From Klebsiella sp. BIGb0138 (GTDB lineage: Bacteria; Pseudomonadota; Gammaproteobacteria; Enterobacterales; Enterobacteriaceae): a stretch of 64,000 bases of DNA. Below are positions 7,097-51,402 of the stretch, one piece after another. A program made the position numbers and the translations under genes. A model generated the notes under the pieces. The model was not told where the DNA came from. It did no database searches and saw nothing but the letters and a program-made list of their open reading frames with translations. Location: the NCBI RefSeq assembly GCF_004342285.1, contig NZ_SMCV01000010.1:124001-188000 (forward strand), written 5' to 3'. Within the stretch, counting starts at the first letter, position 1. Each line of letters opens with the position of its first letter.

Positions 7097-9608
<2,512 letters not shown>

Positions 9609-9625
9609 GGCACCCGCGCGGTGAA
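9609..9625 (+). promoter_or_regulatory. NtrC-like enhancer site
   Basis: GCACC-CGCGC-GGTGA (9610-9624) matches the NtrC dyad GCACC-N5-GGTGC except for the last base. A second, weaker candidate is TGCACCACATCCACGCA at 9703-9719, about 100 bases upstream of the sigma-54 promoter at 9801, a normal enhancer distance. Binding is inferred from motif and position only. Confidence 0.55.
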
Positions 9626-9800
9626 ATTGGCATGTGGGGTATTCTCGCCGGCGATAGCGCTATTTACCCGGCCGTCGGGCGGCCTGTCCGGCGCGGACCG
9701 CCTGCACCACATCCACGCATTGCCCCAAAATCGCTCACCATTGTGGGGTGGCTCGGCGATGGCATTATTTATCCTTTTGAATTTACTCACTCTATTTTCC

Positions 9801-9816
9801 TGGCATGCGCTTTGCA
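9801..9816 (+). promoter_or_regulatory. Sigma-54 (-24/-12) promoter of the guanidine operon
   Basis: TGGCATGCGCTTTGCA fits the RpoN consensus TGGCACG-N4-TTGCW with one mismatch and correct GG-to-GC spacing (12 bases). Transcription would begin near 9827, about 30 bases before the riboswitch. It implies that the operon is switched on by NtrC during nitrogen limitation, which suits a nitrogen-scavenging pathway. Confidence 0.75.
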
Positions 9817-9857
9817 CACTTAAAACCAGAAGGCAGCGCAACAGACAATTTAGATGA

Positions 9858-9958
9858 CCAATAGCTGGCTAGGGTTCCGGTTCACGCAGGTGAATGTCTG
9901 GTCCGAGAGCTGGCGACCTCTGCGAGGTTACACGGCGGGACAAAAGCCCGGGAGACAG
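9858..9958 (+). ncRNA. Guanidine-I (ykkC) riboswitch
   Basis: The leader contains the hallmark blocks of the ykkC/guanidine-I aptamer in order: CTAGGGTTCCG (9869-9879), CTGGTCCGAGAG (9898-9909), and ACACGGCGGGACAAAAGCCC followed by GGGAGA (9930-9954). The class binds free guanidinium and turns gene expression on. It lies between the sigma-54 promoter and the first gene of the guanidine operon. A terminator-like hairpin (9957-9996) follows, the usual expression platform. Confidence 0.93.
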
Positions 9959-9996
9959 CAGCACCATCAGGTGTCGCGCTGCTCCTGTTATTTTTG
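9957..9996 (+). terminator. Riboswitch expression-platform terminator
   Basis: AGCAGC (9957-9962) pairs with GCTGCT (9978-9983), with an inner ACC/GGT pairing; CCTGTTATTTTTG follows. It directly abuts the aptamer's GGGAGA, so ligand binding could plausibly stop it folding. It ends 20 bases before the start codon of the binding-protein gene. Confidence 0.65.
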
Positions 9997-10015
9997 TGCC
10001 AACCAGAGGTTCATA

Positions 10016-11074
10016 ATGAAGACATCCGCCGTCATCCGTTCTTTCATGCTGTCGCTGGCGCTGCTGGCCAGTTTCCCTTCCTTTGCCGCCGTGAAAAAAG
10101 AGTTCAACGTCTGCTGGACGATCTATGCCGGGTGGATGCCCTGGGGCGCCATCAGTAACGAAAAAATCATTGATAAATGGGCCAGTAAGTACGGCATCAA
10201 AATCAACATCGTTCAGCTCAACGATTATATCGAGTCGATCAACCAGTACACCGCCGGTCAGTTTGACGGCTGCACCATGACCAACATGGATGCGCTGACC
10301 ATTCCGGCGGCGGGCGGGGTCGATACCACCGCGCTGATTACCGGCAGCTATTCCGATGGCAACGACGGCGTGGTGCTGAAAGGCGTCGATAAAAAGCTTA
10401 GCGACCTGAAAGGGATGCAGGTCTATCTGCCGGAGCTGTCGGTCTCGCACTATCTGCTGGTGCGCGGGCTGGAAAAAGCCGGCCTGCAGGAAAAAGACGT
10501 TAAAGTGGTGAATACCTCCGACGCCGATATCGTCTCCGCCTTCGGTACCCGCAACGTGCAGGCCGCCGTGGCGTGGAACCCACAGCTCTCCGCGATCAAA
10601 AAGACCCCACAAACCAGCGAAGTGTTTAGCTCATCCCAGGTCCCTGGCGAGATTATCGACATGATGGTGGTCAATACGCAAACCCTGCAAGACAACCCGG
10701 CCCTCGGCAAGGCGCTGACCGGCGCGTGGTTTGAAATGATGGCCAAAATGCAGGCCGGAGACCCGCAGGCGCTGAGCGCGATGGCGGCGGATTCCGGTAC
10801 CGACCTCGCCGGCTATCAGGTACAGCTGAAAACGACCCATCTGTTCTGGACTCCTGCCGACGCCCTGACGTTCATCTCCAGCCCCGATCTGGCAAAAACC
10901 ATGCAGCGCGTGGCGCAGTTCTCGTTTGATAAAGGTCTGCTGGGTGAAGGGGCGCAAAGCGCCGATTTCATCGGCATGCGCTTCCCGGGGAATGTCACCG
11001 TCGGCGATGGCGGCAATACCCGGCTGCGCTTCGACGATAGCTACCTGAAGCTGGCCGCGGCCGGCCAGCTGTAA
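10016..11074 (+). CDS. ABC transporter substrate-binding protein of the guanidine operon (NMT1/TauA-like)
   Basis: 352 residues from the ATG at 10016; the longer open frame upstream runs through the riboswitch and is not coding. The signal peptide (hydrophobic 9-21, SFAA) precedes a TauA/SsuA-type fold (NVCWTIYAGWMPWG; DGCTMTNMDALTIPAAGGVDTTALI). It should bind the imported substrate in the periplasm. Homologues travel with urea-carboxylase/UAAP genes and are often labelled urea transporters. The riboswitch and deiminase genes here make guanidine or a guanidine-releasing compound the likelier substrate, but this is inference. Confidence 0.85.
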   Translation: MKTSAVIRSFMLSLALLASFPSFAAVKKEFNVCWTIYAGWMPWGAISNEKIIDKWASKYGIKINIVQLNDYIESINQYTAGQFDGCTMTNMDALTIPAAGGVDTTALITGSYSDGNDGVVLKGVDKKLSDLKGMQVYLPELSVSHYLLVRGLEKAGLQEKDVKVVNTSDADIVSAFGTRNVQAAVAWNPQLSAIKKTPQTSEVFSSSQVPGEIIDMMVVNTQTLQDNPALGKALTGAWFEMMAKMQAGDPQALSAMAADSGTDLAGYQVQLKTTHLFWTPADALTFISSPDLAKTMQRVAQFSFDKGLLGEGAQSADFIGMRFPGNVTVGDGGNTRLRFDDSYLKLAAAGQL

Positions 11075-11098
11075 TCATCGACGACGGGAGTTAACGCC

Positions 11099-11914
11099 AT
11101 GCGACAAATTAATCGCCATCCACAGCAGGGCATGCGGCTGATGCTGATGCTCTTGCCCTTTGTGCTGCTTATCGCCGCCTGGTTTATCGGCTCCGCCGTT
11201 CGTCTGGAGGCTAACCCCCAGGACAAACTGCTGCCGGGTCTGTCGCAGATGGTGGCCGCGGTCGATCGGATGGCCTTCACGCCGGATAAGCGCAGCGGCG
11301 ACTATCTGCTGTGGGGCGATACGCTTATCAGCCTGGCCCGCCTGCTGACCGGGCTGGCGGTTTCCGCGCTGATTGGTCTGAGCATCGGGATCGTCGCCGG
11401 CGTATTTCCCGTGTACCGCGCCGCGCTGTCGCCGCTGATGACCGTCATTTCGATGGTCCCGCCGCTGGCGATCCTGCCGGTGCTGTTTATCGTCTTCGGC
11501 CTTGATGAACTCTCGAAGGTGATGCTGATCGTCATTGGCATTACGCCGATGCTGGCGCGCGACCTTGAGCAGCGGGCGCGGGAAATACCGGCGGAGCTGT
11601 TTATCAAAGCGCAAACCCTCGGCGCCAACAGCTGGACGGTGGTGCTGCGGGTAGTGCTGCCGCAGCTGCTCTCGCGCCTGATTACCTCGCTGCGCTTGCT
11701 GCTCGGTTCGGCGTGGCTGTTTTTGATTTCGGCGGAGGCCATTTCGGCCACCGCTGGCCTCGGGTATCGCATCTTTCTCGTGCGCCGCTACATGGCGATG
11801 GACGTGATTATTCCCTACGTCATCTGGATAACCCTGCTGGCCTGGCTGATGGATCTCGGACTGCGCCAGCTGCATAAAGCCTGCTTCCCATGGGCCGAAG
11901 GAGGCCGGACATGA
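11099..11914 (+). CDS. ABC transporter permease of the guanidine operon
   Basis: 271 residues with about six membrane helices. It belongs to the BPD-type permeases partnered with TauA-like binding proteins: the cytoplasmic EAA-like loop reads RAREIPAELFIKAQTLGANSWTVV-type sequence (around residues 158-182). The start at 11099 is 24 bases after the binding-protein gene with GGGAG just upstream. Its stop overlaps the ATPase start in an ATGA, so the two are translationally coupled. It forms the membrane channel for the substrate captured by the preceding protein. Confidence 0.88.
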   Translation: MRQINRHPQQGMRLMLMLLPFVLLIAAWFIGSAVRLEANPQDKLLPGLSQMVAAVDRMAFTPDKRSGDYLLWGDTLISLARLLTGLAVSALIGLSIGIVAGVFPVYRAALSPLMTVISMVPPLAILPVLFIVFGLDELSKVMLIVIGITPMLARDLEQRAREIPAELFIKAQTLGANSWTVVLRVVLPQLLSRLITSLRLLLGSAWLFLISAEAISATAGLGYRIFLVRRYMAMDVIIPYVIWITLLAWLMDLGLRQLHKACFPWAEGGRT

Positions 11915-12690
11915 GTTTCATCACCATCAAAAATATCTGGCAGGAGTATGGCGATCACGTGGTGCTGGAACGCATCAATTTGCAGGTCAGGGAAGGGGAA
12001 TTTTGTTCAATGGTGGGAGCCTCTGGCTGCGGAAAGTCGACATTTTTGCGCCTGCTGCTGGGCCAGGAGCGGCCGACCCGCGGCATGATTACGCTCGACG
12101 GTCAGCCGCTGGCGGGCGAACCGGATCGCAGCCGCGGGGTGGTGTTTCAGCGCTATTCCGTGTTCCCGCACCTCACGGTGCTGGATAACGTGGCGGTCGG
12201 TTTTGAGCTTCCGGCCTCGCCGCTCTTCGGCCGCCTGTTCGGCGCCCGTAAACGCGCCGCGCGCGAACAGGCGGCGCAGATGCTGGACAAAGTGGGGCTC
12301 GCCCATGCCCTCGACCGGTATCCGGCGCAGCTTTCCGGCGGCATGCAGCAGCGCCTGGCGATCGCTCAGGCATTCGTGATGCAGCCGCGGGTGCTGCTGC
12401 TCGACGAACCCTTTGGCGCGCTCGACCCCGGCATCCGCAAGGATATGCACGCCTTGCTGCTGCAGCTGTGGAGCGAGACGCGCATGACGGTCTTCATGGT
12501 CACCCACGATCTGGCCGAAGGATTCAACCTCGGCACCCGGCTGCTGGTCTTTGACAAGGTGCGCCACGATCCGCAGGCCCCCAACGCCTACGGCGCGCGC
12601 ATCACCTACGATATTCCGCTTAACGAGACCCGGATGTCGCAGATGCTCGGTACCGGTTCCGATAACAACGTTTATGCATTAAGGAGATAG
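11911..12690 (+). CDS. ABC transporter ATPase of the guanidine operon
   Basis: 259 residues from the ATG at 11911 (AAGGAGG upstream; ATGA overlap with the permease). Walker A GASGCGKST (about 38-46), Q-loop, ABC signature LSGGMQQR, Walker B VLLLDEPFGALD and the switch His in VTHDL are all intact. It energises uptake by the preceding permease and binding protein. It is of the SsuB/TauB class. The next gene starts five bases after its stop. Confidence 0.92.
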   Translation: MSFITIKNIWQEYGDHVVLERINLQVREGEFCSMVGASGCGKSTFLRLLLGQERPTRGMITLDGQPLAGEPDRSRGVVFQRYSVFPHLTVLDNVAVGFELPASPLFGRLFGARKRAAREQAAQMLDKVGLAHALDRYPAQLSGGMQQRLAIAQAFVMQPRVLLLDEPFGALDPGIRKDMHALLLQLWSETRMTVFMVTHDLAEGFNLGTRLLVFDKVRHDPQAPNAYGARITYDIPLNETRMSQMLGTGSDNNVYALRR

Positions 12691-12694
12691 TCCG

Positions 12695-13423
12695 ATGACG
12701 ACACTTTTTCATTCATCACCGAGCCTGCGCGAAGAGTTTTTGCCGGGCGGAGGCCATACCTCATTCATACTGCGCCGCGGGCAAATTCTGCGCCTGACTG
12801 ACGTCGACGGCGGGGCGAACGTCAGCATGATGATGCTCAACCCGCATGAAAAGAGCGAGCGTCTGAACCTGCCGGATACGCTGAAAGGCCAGCACACCGC
12901 CCGCCTGACCGCCGGGCACTGTTTCTATTCCGATATGGGCCGGGTGCTGGCCGGTATCGTTGCCGACAGCTGCGGCTGGCATGACCCGTTCGGCGGCGTG
13001 CTCAATGCGCAAGAGACAGAGGAAAAATATGGCCGCGGCCGCTACCAGGAGCTGCGCAACGCTTTCTACCGCAACGGTACCGATAACCTGTTGGTTGAGA
13101 TGGGAAAATGGGATCTCGGCCTCGAGGATCTGCTGATGGTGGTCAATTTTTTCAGCAAGATAACCGTGGACGGCGCGGGGCGCTTTCAGTTTTGCGCGGG
13201 GCACTCCGCCCCGGGCAGTTACGTCGAGCTATTTGCGCCGATGGACGTGCTGATGATCCTGACCGCACTGCCGCATCCGCAGAACCCCGTCACGGAGTAT
13301 GCGCCGCGCCCGGTCCAGCTGAGCTGGTACCAGGCCGATGATCAAGAGGCGGCGGTCGCAGCGCTATTGACCCGCGATGAAAACCAGCGCGCGTTTGCCA
13401 ATACCCAACTTTTTGCCCTCTGA
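12695..13423 (+). CDS. Urea carboxylase-associated protein 2, carboxyguanidine deiminase subunit (DUF1989)
   Basis: 242 residues, one of the paired DUF1989 proteins (UAAP2) found with biotin-dependent urea/guanidine carboxylases. The two paralogues are known to form a carboxyguanidine deiminase that converts carboxyguanidine to allophanate and ammonia. Conserved family features are visible: [18 protein letters not shown], the Cys-His segment [11 protein letters not shown] and the [14 protein letters not shown] end motif. Start ATG at 12695 with AAGGAGA. It is followed by its partner after a 10-base gap. The symbols cgdA/cgdB are used for the pair, but I do not assign which is which. Confidence 0.85.
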
Positions 13424-13433
13424 GGAGCCCGCC

Positions 13434-14069
13434 ATGAGCCTTGTGACCAGTACCCGTAACCCGGCCGATGCCGTTTATCGCCACGTGATCCCGGCGGGCG
13501 AACCCTGGCTGTTCGAAATCAAAAAGGGGCAGACCCTGCGTCTGCTCGATCTCGAAGGTAATCAGGCCATCGATACCCTGTTTTATAACGCCGATAACCC
13601 GCGCGAACGTTACGACCCGCAGCGCACGCTGCGCCGCCAGGGGAATGCCTATCTGACCACCGGCAGCGTGCTGTTCTCGAATCTGGGCAATCCGCTGCTG
13701 ACCATTGTGGCCGATACCTGCGGGCGTCACGACACTCTCGGCGGCGCCTGCGCGCAGGAGAGCAACACCGTGCGCTATGCGCTGGATAAACGCTACATGC
13801 ACAGCTGCCGGGACAACTTCCTGTGCGCCTGTCTGCACGACGGTCGCCTGCATAAGCGCGATATCGGCGCCAACATCAACTTCTTTATGAACGTCCCGGT
13901 CACCGCAGCCGGCGGCCTGACGTTCGAAGACGGCATCTCGGCCGCCGGGAAGTACGTTGAGCTGCGCGCCGAGTGCAACGCCATGGTGCTGATTTCCAAC
14001 TGTCCGCAGCTGAATAACCCCTGCAACGGCTGGAACCCGACGCCGGCGGAGGTGCTGGTATGGAACTGA
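13434..14069 (+). CDS. Urea carboxylase-associated protein 1, carboxyguanidine deiminase subunit (DUF1989)
   Basis: 211 residues from the ATG at 13434 (GAGGAG upstream; a longer open frame reaches back into the previous gene but lacks a proper start). It is paralogous to the preceding protein: [35 protein letters not shown] (putative Cys/His metal ligands) and the unusual [10 protein letters not shown] cysteine cluster. With its partner it should deiminate carboxyguanidine, feeding allophanate to the hydrolase at the operon end. The function rests on family knowledge plus operon context. Confidence 0.85.
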
Positions 14070-14158
14070 CCCGCTGGCAGCGCTGGCGCCTGATGGCGTA
14101 TCGCCTGTTTGCCGTGCGCGCCGATCGTCTGTTAAGCACGCCATCGCGCAAGCCCTGA
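14060..14158 (+). CDS. Possible 32-residue small protein in the guanidine operon
   Basis: The ATG at 14060 overlaps the last codons of the UAAP1 gene and the frame runs to a TGA at 14156-14158. The product would be strongly basic and Trp/Arg-rich in its first half ([17 protein letters not shown]). The position fits translational coupling, and without it 170 bases inside the operon would be empty. There is no independent support, and it may simply be untranslated spacer. Confidence 0.22.
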
Positions 14159-14239
14159 GTGGCTGCGCGCCCTGGGGACGACCCCGGGGACGCCGATTGT
14201 TTTGCTGCGGGACGACCCGCCACGATGTGAGTCTCCTTT

Positions 14240-17200
14240 ATGTTCAATACCTTACTGATTGCCAATCGCGGCGCCATCGCCTGTCGCATTTTGCGGACTC
14301 TGCGTACCCTGCGGGTCAAAGGGGTGGCCGTCTATTCCGATGCCGATCTCAGCAGCCTGCATATCCGCGAGGCCGATGAAGCGCTGAGCCTCGGCGATGG
14401 TCCTGCGGCGCAAACCTATCTGGTCAGTGAAAAAATCATCGCCGCCGCGTTAAAAAGCGGGGCCGAGGCGATTCATCCCGGCTACGGCTTTTTATCGGAA
14501 AACGCCGCCTTCGCGGAAGCCTGCGAAGCCGCCGGGCTGGTTTTCGTCGGCCCGACGCCAGAACAGCTGCGCACGTTTGGCCTGAAACACACCGCCAGAG
14601 CGCTGGCAAAAGCGCAGGGCGTACCGCTGCTGGAAGGCACCGGGCTGCTGGCCGATAGCGCCGAGGCGCGCCGGGCGGCGGACACCATCGGCTACCCGGT
14701 GATGCTGAAAAGCACCGCGGGCGGCGGCGGGATAGGGATGCGCGTCTGTCGTGATGCCCGCGAGCTGACGGACGCCTTCGACGCCGTGCAGCGGTTGGGC
14801 CAGAACAACTTCAGCGACGCGGGAGTCTTTGTCGAAAAGTACATTGAACGCGCGCGTCATCTGGAAGTGCAGATTTTCGGCGACGGTCAGGGGGAGGTGA
14901 TCGCCCTCGGCGTTCGCGACTGTTCAATACAGCGCCGTAACCAGAAAGTGCTGGAAGAAACCCCGGCGCCGAACCTGCCAATGGGGATGGCGGATGCGCT
15001 GTGCGCGGCGGCGGTCGCGCTCGGCAAAGCGGTCAGCTATCGCAGCGCCGGGACGGTGGAGTTTGTCTATGACAGCGCGGCGCAGCGCTTCTATTTTCTG
15101 GAGGTCAATACCCGCCTGCAGGTGGAGCACGGCGTCACCGAGCAGGTGTGGGGCGTCGATCTGGTGCGCTGGATGATTGCGCTGGCGGCAGGGGATTTAC
15201 CGCCGCTTTCCGAGCTGCTGGCCACGGTGCAGCCGCGCGGCCACGCCATTCAGGCGCGTATTTATGCCGAAGATCCGGGTCGTCAGTTTCAGCCTTCGCC
15301 GGGCCTGCTGACCGAAGTGGCCTTCCCGCCGGCGAACGGGGAGACGCTGCGTATCGATCGCTGGGTGGAAGCCGGCTGCGAGGTGCCGCCGTACTTTGAC
15401 CCGATGCTGGCCAAGATGATTGCCTGGCGTTCCGACCGCGCAGAGGCGATTGCCAGCCTTGCGCAGGCGCTGGCGGCGACCCGGCTGTATGGCGTGGAAA
15501 CCAACCGCGCGTATCTCCAGCAGATTCTGGCCTTCGCCCCGTTTGCCGAGGGCGAACCCTGGACCCGTTGTCTGGAGCAGCTGCATTACCAGGCCGCCAC
15601 CGTAGAAGTATTGAGCGCCGGAACGCAAACCAGCGTGCAGGACTACCCCGGCCGTCTGGGCTATTGGGCGGTGGGGGTGCCGCCGTCGGGGCCGATGGAC
15701 GATCGAGCGCTGCGCCTCGGCAACCGGCTGCTGGGCAACCCGCAGGGGGAAGCGGCGCTGGAAATCACCCTCAACGGACCGACGCTGAAGTTTAATTGCA
15801 CAACCCAGGCGGTGATAAGCGGCGCGCCGCTAGCGGTCACCCTCGACGGCGTCCCTCAGGCGATGGACCGCGTCCTGACCATCCCGGCGGGATCGACGCT
15901 GCAAATGGGAGCCATCAGCGGCGCAGGGGTCAGGAGCTACCTGTGCCTGCGCGGCGGTATTCAGGTCCCGGACTATTTGGGCAGTAAAAGCACTTTTACC
16001 CTCGGGCAGTTCGGTGGTCATGCCGGACGGGCGCTGCGCAGCGGCGATGTCCTGCATCTGGCGCCAACCACCGGCGCAGAAGATGGCGCGATGCTGCCCC
16101 CCGCGCTGCGGACCCCTCTCCCGGCGGTGCGGACGCTGCGGGTAATCTACGGCCCCCACGGCGCGCCGGAGTTCTTTGCCGCCGACTATATCGCCACCTT
16201 CTTTGCCACCAACTGGGAGGTGCATTTCAACTCCAGCCGTACCGGCGTGCGGCTGATGGGCCCGAAACCGCTGTGGGCACGCGAAAGCGGAGGGGAGGCC
16301 GGGCTGCATCCGTCGAATATTCACGATAATCCTTACGCCATCGGCGCGGTCGATTTTACCGGCGACATGCCGGTTATTCTCGGCCCCGACGGTCCGAGCC
16401 TCGGCGGTTTTGTCTGCCCGGTGACGGTGATCGAGGCCGATCTCTGGCAACTGGGGCAGCTTAAAGCCGGCGACAAAGTGCGCTTTGTGGCGGTGGACCT
16501 GCCCACCGCCCGCCGGCTGGCGCAGGGGCGTAGCGATGAGCTGGCGACTCTCGACGCCGCGCCCGTGGCCTGGCAACCCGCGGCGCTGAGCTCGCCGATG
16601 GTGATGAGCTGCGGCGAGGCGGACAAGCGCCTGGTGGCCCGGCTCTCCGGCGATACCCATCTGCTGCTGGAGGCGGGGGAAGCGGAGCTGGATCTGGTAC
16701 TGCGTTTTCGCATCCACGCCCTGATGCAGGCGCTGGAAGGCCAGTCGCGGGACGGGGTGGTCGACCTGACGCCGGGGATTCGCTCCCTGCAGATCCATTT
16801 CCAGCCGGAAACCCTGACGCTCGATGCGCTGCTGGCGTGGGTGAGCGCGGAGTGGACGACGGTGTGCGTCAGCGATGACCTGCAGGTCCCGACCCGGGTG
16901 GTACACCTGCCGCTGTCCTGGGACGACCCGGCCTGCCGCAAGGCCATCGATAAGTACATGACCACCGTACGCCGCGATGCCCCGTGGTGCCCGAGCAATC
17001 TTGAGTTTATCCGCAGAATTAACGATCTGCCCGATGAACGGGCGGTATGGAACACGGTGTTTGACGCCAGTTACCTGGTGATGGGACTGGGGGATGTCTA
17101 TCTTGGCGCGCCGGTGGCGACGCCGCTCGATCCGCGCCATCGGCTGGTGACGACCAAATATAATCCGGCGCGGACATGGACCGCGGAAAACTCGGTCGGC

Positions 17201-17845
17201 ATCGGCGGGGCCTATCTGTGCGTCTACGGCATGGAGGGGCCCGGAGGCTATCAGTTTGTCGGTCGAACGTTGCAGATGTGGAACCGCTATCACGAAGTGG
17301 CCGATTTCGCCGGTAAACCCTGGCTGCTGCGCTTCTTCGACCAGTTGCGATTCTATCCGGTCTCTGCCGATGAGCTGCTGCAGATCCGCCGCGACTTCCC
17401 GCTCGGCCGCTATCCGCTGCAAATCGAACACAGCACGCTGCGCCTGGCGGAGTATCAGCAGTTTCTGCAACGTGAAGCCGCGAGTATCGCGGCGTTTCGA
17501 GAACACCAGCAGCGCGCCTTCCATGACGAACGCGAGCGCTGGATAGCCAGCGGCCAGGCGCATTTCGACAGCCAGGAGACGCCGGCTGAAGAGGGCGATG
17601 AGGCGCCGTTGCAGGCGGGACAGCAGGGGGTGGAGAGCCCCATCTCCGGCAATCTTTGGCAGGTGCAGGCGGCGGCGGGCAGCCGCGTCCGCGCCGGCGA
17701 GGTGCTGGTGGTGCTGGAGTCAATGAAAATGGAGATCCCGCTGCTGGCGCCGTGCGACGGGGTGATTGCGCAGGTTAACGTGCAGCCCGGGGCATCGGTA
17801 CGCGCCGGGCAGCGGGTGGCGGTGATCGTGGAGGAAAAAATATGA
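14240..17845 (+). CDS. Biotin-dependent urea/guanidine carboxylase
   Basis: 1201 residues with the full urea-carboxylase layout: biotin carboxylase (1-450; LIANRGAIACRILR, ATP-grasp loop STAGGGGIGMR), carboxyltransferase made of a KipA/AHS2-like part (about 455-760; TSVQDYPGRLGYWAVG) and a KipI/AHS1-like part (about 790-1000), and a C-terminal biotinyl domain with VLESMKMEIP, whose Lys carries biotin. It consumes ATP and bicarbonate. Linked to a guanidine riboswitch and deiminase subunits, it most likely carboxylates guanidine rather than urea. The stop overlaps the allophanate hydrolase start (ATGA). Cytoplasmic. Confidence 0.92.
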   Translation: MFNTLLIANRGAIACRILRTLRTLRVKGVAVYSDADLSSLHIREADEALSLGDGPAAQTYLVSEKIIAAALKSGAEAIHPGYGFLSENAAFAEACEAAGLVFVGPTPEQLRTFGLKHTARALAKAQGVPLLEGTGLLADSAEARRAADTIGYPVMLKSTAGGGGIGMRVCRDARELTDAFDAVQRLGQNNFSDAGVFVEKYIERARHLEVQIFGDGQGEVIALGVRDCSIQRRNQKVLEETPAPNLPMGMADALCAAAVALGKAVSYRSAGTVEFVYDSAAQRFYFLEVNTRLQVEHGVTEQVWGVDLVRWMIALAAGDLPPLSELLATVQPRGHAIQARIYAEDPGRQFQPSPGLLTEVAFPPANGETLRIDRWVEAGCEVPPYFDPMLAKMIAWRSDRAEAIASLAQALAATRLYGVETNRAYLQQILAFAPFAEGEPWTRCLEQLHYQAATVEVLSAGTQTSVQDYPGRLGYWAVGVPPSGPMDDRALRLGNRLLGNPQGEAALEITLNGPTLKFNCTTQAVISGAPLAVTLDGVPQAMDRVLTIPAGSTLQMGAISGAGVRSYLCLRGGIQVPDYLGSKSTFTLGQFGGHAGRALRSGDVLHLAPTTGAEDGAMLPPALRTPLPAVRTLRVIYGPHGAPEFFAADYIATFFATNWEVHFNSSRTGVRLMGPKPLWARESGGEAGLHPSNIHDNPYAIGAVDFTGDMPVILGPDGPSLGGFVCPVTVIEADLWQLGQLKAGDKVRFVAVDLPTARRLAQGRSDELATLDAAPVAWQPAALSSPMVMSCGEADKRLVARLSGDTHLLLEAGEAELDLVLRFRIHALMQALEGQSRDGVVDLTPGIRSLQIHFQPETLTLDALLAWVSAEWTTVCVSDDLQVPTRVVHLPLSWDDPACRKAIDKYMTTVRRDAPWCPSNLEFIRRINDLPDERAVWNTVFDASYLVMGLGDVYLGAPVATPLDPRHRLVTTKYNPARTWTAENSVGIGGAYLCVYGMEGPGGYQFVGRTLQMWNRYHEVADFAGKPWLLRFFDQLRFYPVSADELLQIRRDFPLGRYPLQIEHSTLRLAEYQQFLQREAASIAAFREHQQRAFHDERERWIASGQAHFDSQETPAEEGDEAPLQAGQQGVESPISGNLWQVQAAAGSRVRAGEVLVVLESMKMEIPLLAPCDGVIAQVNVQPGASVRAGQRVAVIVEEKI

Positions 17846-19638
17846 GCCAGCAAACTTTTGATTTACGTCTGGCGACCCTCGCGGGCGCCTACCGGAGCGG
17901 TGAAGTGACGCCGCGCGCGCTGCTGGCCGATTTACGCCAGCGGGCGCTGATGCTGAACCCGGAATATCAGCTGTTTATTCATATTCTGACAGCGGAAGAG
18001 CTGGAGCCGTGGCTGGCGGCGCTGGACGGCATCTCGCCGGAAACGCTGCCGCTGTACGGGGTGCCGTTTGCCATCAAAGATAATATCGACCTCGCGGGGA
18101 TTGCCACTACCGCCGCCTGTCCGGCGTTCGCCCATACCGCGGGCGAGGATGCGACCATCGTGGCGCAGCTGATTGCCCTTGGCGCGATCCCGATCGGCAA
18201 AACCAATCTTGACCAGTTCGCGACCGGTCTCAACGGTACGCGCTCGCCCTACGGGCGCTGTCGTAATGCCTACCATGCGGACTATCCTTCCGGCGGCTCC
18301 AGCGCGGGATCGGCGCTGGCGGTGGCGCTCGGCGTCGCCAGTTTTGCCCTTGGAACCGACACCGCCGGCAGCGGGCGGGTGCCGGCCTCGCTGAATAATC
18401 TGGTGGGGCTGAAGGCCAGTAAAGGCCTCATCTCCACCGCCGGAGTGGTGCCCGCCTGTCGGACGCTTGATTGTACGACCTTCTTTACCGCCACCGCCGA
18501 TGAGGCCAGCCAGCTGCTGGCGCTCACCGCGCGGTACGATCCGCGGGATGCCTACAGCCGCCGCAACCCGCAGTGGAACAGCCGTCAGGCGTTCGGCACG
18601 CCGCAGCCGGGTTTTTGCTTCGGCGTACCCGATGAGCTGAATTTTCTCGGCTGCGCGCAGAGCGAGGCGCTATTCAGGCAGGCCAAAGCGCGGCTAATTG
18701 CCCTTGGCGGGGTGCCGGTGAGCGTCGATCTGACGCCGTTTCTTGCCGCCGCTCGCCTGCTGTACGAAGGACCGTGGGTGGCGGAGCGTTATGCGGTGGT
18801 GGGCGCGCTAATCGAGCAGCAGCCGGAGGCGGTATTGCCGGTGATTCGCGACGTGCTGGCGAAAGCGCCGGGTACCGACGCGGTGGCGACCTTCAGGGCC
18901 ATGTACCAGCTGCAGGCGTATAAGACGCAGTGTGACGCGATCCTCGACACGCTGGATTGCGTACTGACCCCGACCTATCCGCGCCCGGTGACCCTCGCCG
19001 AACTGGAGGCCGAGCCGCTACAGCGTAATGCCGATCTTGGCTACTACACCAACTTTATGAACCTGCTGGATTATGCGGCGGTCAACGTCCCCGCCGGCTT
19101 TTTGGCCAATGGACTCCCGTCCGGCGTCACGCTGTTCGGGCGGGTTTTTACCGACCAGTATCTTCTTGGCCTTGCCGACGCTTTCCAGCGCGCGCAGCCG
19201 CTGCCGCTGGTCGGCGGTACATACCTGGCAGGCGCGCCGCCGGCTACCGTTGCCAGCCACGATCGTCTGCCGCTGGTGGTTTGCGGGGCGCATCTTGACG
19301 GCCTGCCATTGAACGGGCAGCTGCGGGAGCGGGGCGGACGTCTGCTGACGGCGACGGAAAGCGCAGCGCATTACCGGCTGTACGCGCTGGCCGATGGCAA
19401 ACGGCCTGGCATGGTGCGTGATGAAAATAACGGCGCGGCTATCGCGGTTGAAGTCTGGGAGCTGCCTTCCGCCGAACTGGGATCGCTGCTGGCGGCCATT
19501 CCCGCGCCGCTGGGGTTAGGTAAAGTCGAATTGTCCGACGGAAGGTGGCTAAGCGGCTTTATCTGTGAGGGCTATGGTTTGCAGGGAGCAACCGACATCA
19601 CCCGCTACGGCGGCTGGCGGGCGTGGCTGAAACGCTAG
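17842..19638 (+). CDS. atzF: Allophanate hydrolase
   Basis: 598 residues. An amidase-signature domain (1-about 450) carries the Lys79-Ser153-Ser177 triad (FAIKDN; GGSSAGS; TDTAGSGR). The C-terminal part (about 470-598) is the extra domain typical of AtzF/DUR2-type enzymes that finish turning allophanate into two ammonia and two CO2. It is the last gene of the guanidine operon and overlaps the carboxylase by four bases. A long hairpin follows the stop. The family call is firm; the symbol is by analogy with AtzF. Confidence 0.92.
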   Translation: MSQQTFDLRLATLAGAYRSGEVTPRALLADLRQRALMLNPEYQLFIHILTAEELEPWLAALDGISPETLPLYGVPFAIKDNIDLAGIATTAACPAFAHTAGEDATIVAQLIALGAIPIGKTNLDQFATGLNGTRSPYGRCRNAYHADYPSGGSSAGSALAVALGVASFALGTDTAGSGRVPASLNNLVGLKASKGLISTAGVVPACRTLDCTTFFTATADEASQLLALTARYDPRDAYSRRNPQWNSRQAFGTPQPGFCFGVPDELNFLGCAQSEALFRQAKARLIALGGVPVSVDLTPFLAAARLLYEGPWVAERYAVVGALIEQQPEAVLPVIRDVLAKAPGTDAVATFRAMYQLQAYKTQCDAILDTLDCVLTPTYPRPVTLAELEAEPLQRNADLGYYTNFMNLLDYAAVNVPAGFLANGLPSGVTLFGRVFTDQYLLGLADAFQRAQPLPLVGGTYLAGAPPATVASHDRLPLVVCGAHLDGLPLNGQLRERGGRLLTATESAAHYRLYALADGKRPGMVRDENNGAAIAVEVWELPSAELGSLLAAIPAPLGLGKVELSDGRWLSGFICEGYGLQGATDITRYGGWRAWLKR

Positions 19639-51171: not shown

Positions 51172-51248
51172 AGGACCTCCTGATACAAGGGGAGATCCGG
51201 GCGTGCAGAAGTATGAACAGGCAATGGCGGTAAACTGGCAAAATTGCC

Positions 51249-51330
51249 GACCCGTCCCTTCGCTGGCATGACCCAGATCAGGTTCAAAGGGTTCGGCTTA
51301 CGCCATCTCAGCCCTCACGGGACACCCCTC
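51249..51330 (-). ncRNA. TPP riboswitch (THI box)
   Basis: On the - strand the order is GGGGTGTCCC, GGGCTGAGATGGCG, then the near-invariant CCCTTTGAACCTGATCTGG and GCCAGCGAAGGGA: a standard thiamine-pyrophosphate aptamer. It ends about 80 bases before the tenA start, so TPP should repress the tenA-ABC operon. Confidence 0.96.
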
Positions 51331-51402
51331 GGTTGCGTCATGTTATACGGCATTCATTTTTTGATTACAATCCCGAAAGCGGTCGCCAGCGTCGCTCTGT
51401 TT

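Follow-up and report, generated by a model that had tools for sequence, protein, structure and literature searches.

What controls the operon for guanidine assimilation that lies beyond a 741-nt intergenic region next to katG in Klebsiella sp. BIGb0138, and does this control treat free guanidine as a toxin or as a nutrient, a question that has stood open since the guanidine riboswitches were identified? A first-pass annotation of the 64,000-nucleotide stretch of DNA that contains this locus (the whole stretch is called the window here) had placed a sigma-54 promoter and two NtrC-like sites in front of the operon, whose expression would then need both nitrogen limitation and guanidine. As far as sequence can tell, this interpretation of promoter, activator sites and operon function is supported, and we assign a probability of roughly 0.85 to the explanation that a sigma-54/NtrC promoter and a guanidine-I riboswitch together control the operon (features in Table 1).

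Table 1 Features of the katG-operon intergenic region and of the operon, in window coordinates.
Feature	Position	Strand	Basis or remark
katG	7097–9274	minus	gene just upstream of operon
NtrC-like site GGCACCCGCGCGGTGAA, centre -210	9609–9625	+	10/12 positions of TGCACY-N5-RGTGCA
Conserved upstream block holding the -116 site	9700–9750	+	alignment of five relatives
NtrC-like site TGCACCACATCCACGCA, centre -116	9703–9719	+	9/12 positions of TGCACY-N5-RGTGCA
Sigma-54 (-24/-12) promoter TGGCATGCGCTTTGCA	9801–9816	+	GG 9802–9803, GC 9814–9815; equivalents in relatives
Predicted transcription start	9827	+	12 nt past C of GC element; sigma-54 geometry
Leader strand GGCAGCGCAACA	9832–9843	+	complementary to 3' arm TGTCGCGCTGCT at 9972–9983
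Guanidine-I (ykkC) riboswitch aptamer	9858–9956	+	RF00442, 91.1 bits (gathering score 63)
Terminator-like hairpin CGGGAG-A-CAGC-A-GCACC / GGTGT-CGC-GCTG-CTCCTG with T-rich tail	9949–9996	+	minimum-energy fold, sequence
Guanidine-assimilation operon	10016–19638	+	importer, two deiminase subunits, carboxylase, allophanate hydrolase
Substrate-binding protein of guanidine importer	10016–11074	+	TIGR03427, 540 bits
ABC permease	11099–11914	+	taurine/nitrate permease families, below their cut-offs
ABC ATPase	11890–12690	+	ABC ATPase families, those shown below their cut-offs
Carboxyguanidine deiminase subunit (annotated UAAP1)	12695–13423	+	TIGR03425, 299 bits; function from literature
Carboxyguanidine deiminase subunit (annotated UAAP2)	13377–14069	+	TIGR03424, 329 bits
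Guanidine-II (mini-ykkC) riboswitch, inside operon	14170–14220	+	RF01068, 42.3 bits
Guanidine (urea) carboxylase	14240–17845	+	TIGR02712, 1828 bits
Allophanate hydrolase	17842–19638	+	TIGR02713, 752 bits

The guanidine operon that had been proposed behind the riboswitch is real, as indicated by the RF00442 score of the aptamer together with a guanidine carboxylase operon gene set that is complete. Riboswitches of the guanidine-I class bind guanidine and turn expression on, and the two riboswitches and the gene set point to guanidine, not urea, as the substrate. The deiminase subunit annotated UAAP2 may have its true start further inside the reading frame. The 5.6-Mb genome encodes both rpoN (PF04552, 240 bits) and ntrC (TIGR01818, 810 bits; cut-off 558.6). 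Among the loci fetched, a set from which records very close to the window may be missing, the nearest one with a name belongs to Raoultella ornithinolytica, at 93% for the importer protein. A DNA similarity search returned no match in E. coli genomes, and matches in 79 plasmid records, mostly from Pantoea, which, among the matches listed, all start at or beyond position 9777. Elsewhere in the window, a TPP riboswitch (74.7 bits) lies on the minus strand at 51238–51339.

The sigma-54 element was confirmed at exactly the location that had been proposed for it. It differs from TGGCACG-N4-TTGCW by one mismatch and scores 10/11 on TGGCAC-N5-TTGCW, with the GG and GC in register; at sigma-54 promoters, transcription starts about 12 nt after the GC element, giving the predicted start in Table 1. 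Motif frequencies in the window are not beyond chance: with up to two mismatches, the strict sigma-54 pattern occurs 9 times against 15.2 in shuffles, and with up to three, the NtrC pattern occurs 57 times against 86, while the relaxed exact sigma-54 pattern occurs once against 0.26, a number reached by 22 of 100 shuffles. Across the whole genome, the relaxed exact pattern has 25 occurrences, compared to 7 for the same pattern written backwards. Window counts alone prove nothing about these motifs, and the case is carried by comparative counts.

We searched genomes for guanidine-I riboswitches at four partly overlapping ranks, counting repeat finds once, and obtained hits above the Rfam cut-off in 29 of 198 genomes of the family, 39 of 394 of the order, 29 of 369 of the class and 41 of 398 of the phylum. 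To be scored as a sigma-54 site, a sequence in the 150 nt before the aptamer had to match at least 9 of 11 positions and to keep GG and GC in register. Such a site, equivalent to that in the window, was present at 127 of the 145 loci above the cut-off, compared to 0/145 for the reversed motif, 1/145 on the opposite strand and 64 of 3494 other 150-nt segments from the first 101 loci. These 145 loci are not independent, since some come from one genome or lie in the same divergent intergenic region; they represent 81 genera, at least 66 of which have the site. Left out of the 145 were four matches below the Rfam cut-off (L031, 36.2 bits; L202, 58.4 bits; L203, 42.6 bits; and L205, 51.6 bits, a second match in G114), none of which has a sigma-54 site at this threshold. 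In the family search, each of the 29 loci above the cut-off carries a -24/-12 site, beginning 47–71 nt upstream of the aptamer; pooling the first three rank searches gives 90 of 101 loci, and the phylum search added the site in 30/30 new loci of the same class and in 7/14 loci of other classes.

The -24/-12 element is conserved beyond its surroundings, which are near-random over 66 genera, with at most 0.36 bits in the five bases on either side and at most 0.34 bits in the spacer. Part of the conservation within the element follows from the selection itself, which demanded at least 9/11 matches and both GG and GC, and the reversed-motif count is the fair test. A further set of named genomes was obtained by aligning 21 importer proteins, scanning the genomes with the alignment and keeping the best 80 of 568 relatives; among these best 80, four of which repeat loci of the first set, both the riboswitch core motif (a sequence pattern here, not an Rfam score) and the sigma-54 site were found in 80/80. 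This named set includes Raoultella, Pantoea, Erwinia, Kosakonia, Pectobacterium, Paraburkholderia, Caballeronia, Methylophaga and many Pseudomonas, and many of its Pseudomonas and Paraburkholderia loci have TCGC instead of TTGC as the -12 element.

The predicted start lies 15–75 nt before the aptamer in 110 of the 127 loci with a site. At some loci the site itself is found 25–27 nt (seven loci of other classes) or 20–31 nt (six loci of the same class) before the aptamer, so that the predicted start would fall at the aptamer edge; loci with almost no leader, the site lying 20–31 nt before the aptamer, are L146, L148, L150, L193, L194, L196 and L199, and also L088, L098, L102, L103, L126 and L128. 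We also observed divergent pairs of guanidine-I riboswitches within one intergenic region, each with a sigma-54 site of its own (L101/L128, L106/L126, L098/L123 and L197).

Upstream of the promoter, both NtrC-like sites were found where they had been placed, and their ranking by the first-pass annotation stood in part. The -210 site does score better, but it is less conserved, being absent in R. ornithinolytica according to site scoring and the alignment of five relatives, whereas the supposedly weaker -116 site lies in the commonest position range and in the best-conserved block. An equivalent of the -116 site is present in R. ornithinolytica (9/12, at -115), and a congener (L005) has a 10/12 site at -116 and an 11/12 site, GGCACTGAGGCGGTGCA, at -208. 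A third, weak NtrC-like site in phase with these, read by eye at ~9734–9750 (-85; 7/12), is possible.

Of 90 loci, 62 have an NtrC-like site with 10 or more of the 12 positions matched, compared to a mean of 4.75 and a largest value of 8 in 20 rounds of shuffles; at 9/12 or better, the count is 87/90 against 30.9 in shuffles, and in the named set 46/80 loci have a site of at least 10/12. Taking one locus per genus, 39 of 53 strong sites fall between -160 and -81, and 20 between -120 and -101. We further ran an unprompted search over the 220 nt that precede the promoter in each of 53 genera, accepting any inverted repeat whose halves differ at no more than one position. Its two top repeats were TGCAC-N7-GTGCA (23 loci against 0.8 shuffled) and GCACC-N5-GGTGC (20 against 0.4), which together we take to be the NtrC consensus.

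The controls and exceptions relate these promoter sites to the genes behind them. Among the 30 best-scoring guanidine-II loci of the same family, 28 located before a gdx-type exporter gene and two inside operons before a carboxylase, no sigma-54 site was found (0/30). Behind the guanidine-I riboswitches with a site, the first recognised gene is for importer or deiminase at 104 of 127 loci and none of the query genes at 23, where translations revealed several importer binding proteins and four ureohydrolases. Read in the same way, a ureohydrolase-type (guanidinase-like) protein follows guanidine-I at L101, L106, L122, L123 and L149, four of these five having a sigma-54 site. The site is missing at threshold from 18/145 loci, or 20 counting two below the Rfam cut-off. 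These 20 comprise a gdx exporter (L120), an APC-type permease (L110), a ureohydrolase (L149), 15 importer or deiminase loci and the sub-threshold L202 and L203, whose genes read as other transporters; with 15 importer or deiminase loci among them, absence of the site does not follow gene content alone.

The regulators themselves were looked for in 41 genomes, which are not a random sample, having been picked so as to cover 18 of the 20 exceptions. Three of the 41 (G1134, G1214 and G1109, all of one family) have no rpoN, and none of the three has the site, the G1109 locus being below the Rfam cut-off; of seven genomes with no ntrC above the cut-off, six have no site. One genome with a sigma-54 site, G882, has no ntrC above the cut-off and is 79% complete, and at least ten exception genomes have both rpoN and ntrC; both observations count against the NtrC/sigma-54 explanation. 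Importer operons at L117 and L118 (G380 and G533, family f7) stand behind guanidine-I with no sigma-54 site, though rpoN and ntrC are present. At L031 (G113), a truncated aptamer of 36.2 bits is followed, within ~1440–1680 of the reversed locus, by an apparent C-terminal remnant of the carboxylase, and the GC of the -12 element has turned into GT; promoter and operon seem to have decayed together here, leaving a scar of operon loss. A perfect match to the sigma-54 pattern 512 nt upstream of the genome's own gdx guanidine-II riboswitch (L204, G000:C7:168500-172500) lies inside an apparent small lipoprotein frame, presumably entericidin-like, and was set aside as probably a coding coincidence.

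Between promoter and genes, the riboswitch would offer a second level of control. The terminator-like hairpin shares its 5' arm with the 3' end of the aptamer, and the fold uses the GGGAG strand (z-score of the whole 189 nt, -1.92); a simple terminator scan did not list this hairpin. The predicted start near 9827, as put forward in the first-pass annotation, coincides with the beginning of a strand that, in many relatives, pairs with the expression platform of the riboswitch. Such a leader helix was found for the window's own locus and for the congener, and elsewhere joins GACATGAGAGATGTAT with ATACGTCTCTCATGTT in L068 and GAGAGGTGCGGCGGC with GCCGTCGCGCCTCTC in L197, the leader and arm sequences varying between families with the pairing kept. 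Leaders complementary to the arm that closes the OFF hairpin were also observed at L129, L134 and others.

Scored as ungapped helices, a leader's own downstream arm beats the arm of every other family in 18/60 genera and ranks in the top 5% in 29/60. With another 60 nt of upstream sequence added to the leader, the helix began no earlier than -2 and no later than +8 relative to the predicted sigma-54 start in 23 of the 28 genera with a strong helix. The cognate leader and arm pair had the best duplex energy of all in only 16/60 genera, and z-scores against shuffled leaders were modest, with a median of -1.8 and values of -2 or below in 50/114. Duplex energies were dropped for placing the helix, because the program adds distant pairs and so makes the start boundary uninformative, and ungapped helices were used instead. 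The leader helix is clear in Enterobacterales and several other families and was not seen in all.

This pattern suggests that the leader strand acts as an antiterminator. The helix could also be read the opposite way, the leader serving as the 5' arm of a long-range terminator that turns expression off, as in several Enterobacterales (L068, L058) the helix directly abuts the T-run. We consider that reading rather unlikely: the helix would span the whole aptamer, a T-rich stretch follows it in only 14 of the 35 genera with a strong helix, and in 25 of these 35 there is overlap between the 3' arm of the helix and the best partner of the aptamer's GGGAG, which suggests that helix and terminator hairpin compete (L005, standing for the genus of the window, is among the ten with no such overlap). 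With the leader as antiterminator, promoter and riboswitch might form a co-evolved module, in which the sigma-54 start is positioned to give the RNA, as its opening segment, the strand that later competes for the terminator 3' arm; we offer this tentatively, at somewhat less than even odds. If true, the nitrogen-controlled promoter would supply the RNA end that the guanidine switch needs, transcripts entering from other promoters would switch differently, and the module, which the exporter loci examined do not have, would label guanidine as a source of nitrogen throughout the Gammaproteobacteria, broadly defined.

Taken together, these observations lead us to the following model. The operon would be transcribed from the sigma-54 promoter of Table 1. 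Under nitrogen limitation, phosphorylated NtrC would bind at -116, with the -210 site contributing in this lineage, and would loop to sigma-54 RNA polymerase, so that transcription starts near the predicted position. With guanidine absent, the GGGAG strand of the aptamer would pair with the downstream arm and transcription would mostly stop; with guanidine present, the aptamer would hold the GGGAG strand, the leader at the 5' end could pair with that downstream arm, and transcription would continue into the import and degradation genes. The guanidine-II riboswitch inside the operon would provide a second guanidine check before the carboxylase. What the sequences establish directly are the genes of the operon, the conserved motifs and both regulator genes, rpoN and ntrC. 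Dependence on NtrC and sigma-54, the start site and the switching are what we infer from sequence, and an AND gate of nitrogen hunger and guanidine is well supported as an inference from this architecture.

Other explanations of the locus differ in how much of this control they would retain. That the motif matches are coincidental, an idea to which motif numbers no higher than chance within the window might lend itself, is contradicted by the comparative counts of sigma-54 sites, NtrC-like sites and the named set (127/145 against 0 for the reversed motif, 80/80 named loci and 0/30 in the guanidine-II control), and we give it virtually no weight. It is also very improbable that a housekeeping promoter mainly drives the operon, with the riboswitch as sole regulator and the -24/-12 match secondary; the 18 of 145 loci that do without a site at threshold would suit such an arrangement, but the other 127 keep it while their flanks vary freely, the beginnings of leader helices tend to coincide with the sigma-54 start, and no sigma-70-like promoter was found in 9276–10040, which is weak evidence since only 0.9 would be expected by chance. 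A little more room, though not much, is left for a sigma-54-dependent promoter whose main activator is a different enhancer-binding protein, perhaps one that senses guanidine or a metabolite. The genome encodes many proteins of the NtrC kind (30 TIGR01818 matches scored of 53 candidates), 28/90 loci have no NtrC-like site of 10/12 or better, and it counts against the NtrC model that sites of this quality are found in only 62/90 and 46/80 loci and that the window's best-placed site reaches 9/12. A different activator is nevertheless at odds with the outcome of the unprompted palindrome search, with the operon containing no activator gene and having katG as its upstream neighbour, and with an ntrC mutant of Burkholderia cenocepacia, which loses expression of similar genes. 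NtrC acting with sigma-54 remains our preferred reading.

A nitrogen-regulated promoter stacked on a guanidine riboswitch would then be the rule, with exceptions, for the guanidine-assimilation loci of this class, suggesting that these bacteria handle guanidine as food and not just as a poison. With nitrogen control found again and again across the class on genes for uptake and degradation, and on none of the exporter loci examined, guanidine would be a nitrogen reserve that is opened when nitrogen is short. By the same reasoning, these operons could stay silent in ammonium-fed cultures even with guanidine present, a practical point for studies of guanidine use. The arrangement would also constitute a natural two-input gate whose promoter and RNA parts are separable.

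Several of these elements have precedents in the literature. Guanidine-I assimilation operons are known in Raoultella terrigena, Erwinia rhapontici and Klebsiella michiganensis (PMC12186494), which resemble the operon described here in having importer and deiminase behind guanidine-I, and carboxylase and hydrolase behind guanidine-II. This 2025 review also states that the physiological significance of guanidine has remained elusive, and the terms NtrC, RpoN, sigma, nitrogen limitation and nitrogen starvation do not appear in its text. According to a prediction of the sigma-54 regulon, 102 genes of COG3665, 'urea carboxylase', are sigma-54-regulated; guanidine is absent from its text and 'riboswitch' occurs in the reference list only (PMC12316311). 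In B. cenocepacia H111 shifted to low ammonium, an ntrC mutant is reported to show a log2 change of -6.0 for urea carboxylase and lower expression of I35_7283-7286, with adjacent transporter and aminomethyltransferase genes also depending on ntrC (PMC5491218). Among the sources consulted, this is the only experimental support for NtrC dependence; the genes are interpreted there as urea genes, and guanidine and riboswitch are unmentioned (PMC5491218). If the B. cenocepacia operon carries the riboswitch, an ntrC effect in a text with no guanidine argues against a strict AND gate, and the guanidine gate may be a leaky one, a point for which we slightly lowered our confidence. No named B. cenocepacia replicon is among the 60 of 377 plasmid records listed in a protein search of plasmids.

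According to PMC12508155, guanidine-I is presumed to act by destabilising an intrinsic terminator, in line with the model proposed here. Literature joining guanidine riboswitches to NtrC or sigma-54 was not found in sources that mostly do not cover subscription journals: pairing guanidine riboswitch with NtrC gave only c-di-GMP work, judged by title and abstract, ykkC with NtrC gave nothing, guanidine as nitrogen source with sigma54 gave, in the text returned, only guanidine as a reagent, and riboswitch with sigma54-dependent promoter gave nothing on guanidine at the level of titles and abstracts. Broader searches likewise showed no such connection among the results listed. No relevant passages were found in PMC10746234, PMC7801951, PMC5748707, PMC3616915 or PMC12421884, nor NtrC, RpoN or promoter in PMC11410670.

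What appears to be new is that the coupling of promoter and riboswitch would be class-wide and go with uptake and degradation genes, and that many lineages would have, right at the predicted 5' end of the sigma-54 transcript, a strand complementary to the OFF hairpin's 3' arm. The established nitrogen-assimilation promoters that depend on NtrC and sigma-54 include glnAp2, nac and glnK. The locus described here resembles them in its -24/-12 element, in NtrC palindromes about a hundred base pairs upstream and in target genes that scavenge nitrogen; unlike at glnAp2, nac and glnK, its transcript would also have to pass a ligand-sensing riboswitch before reaching the genes.
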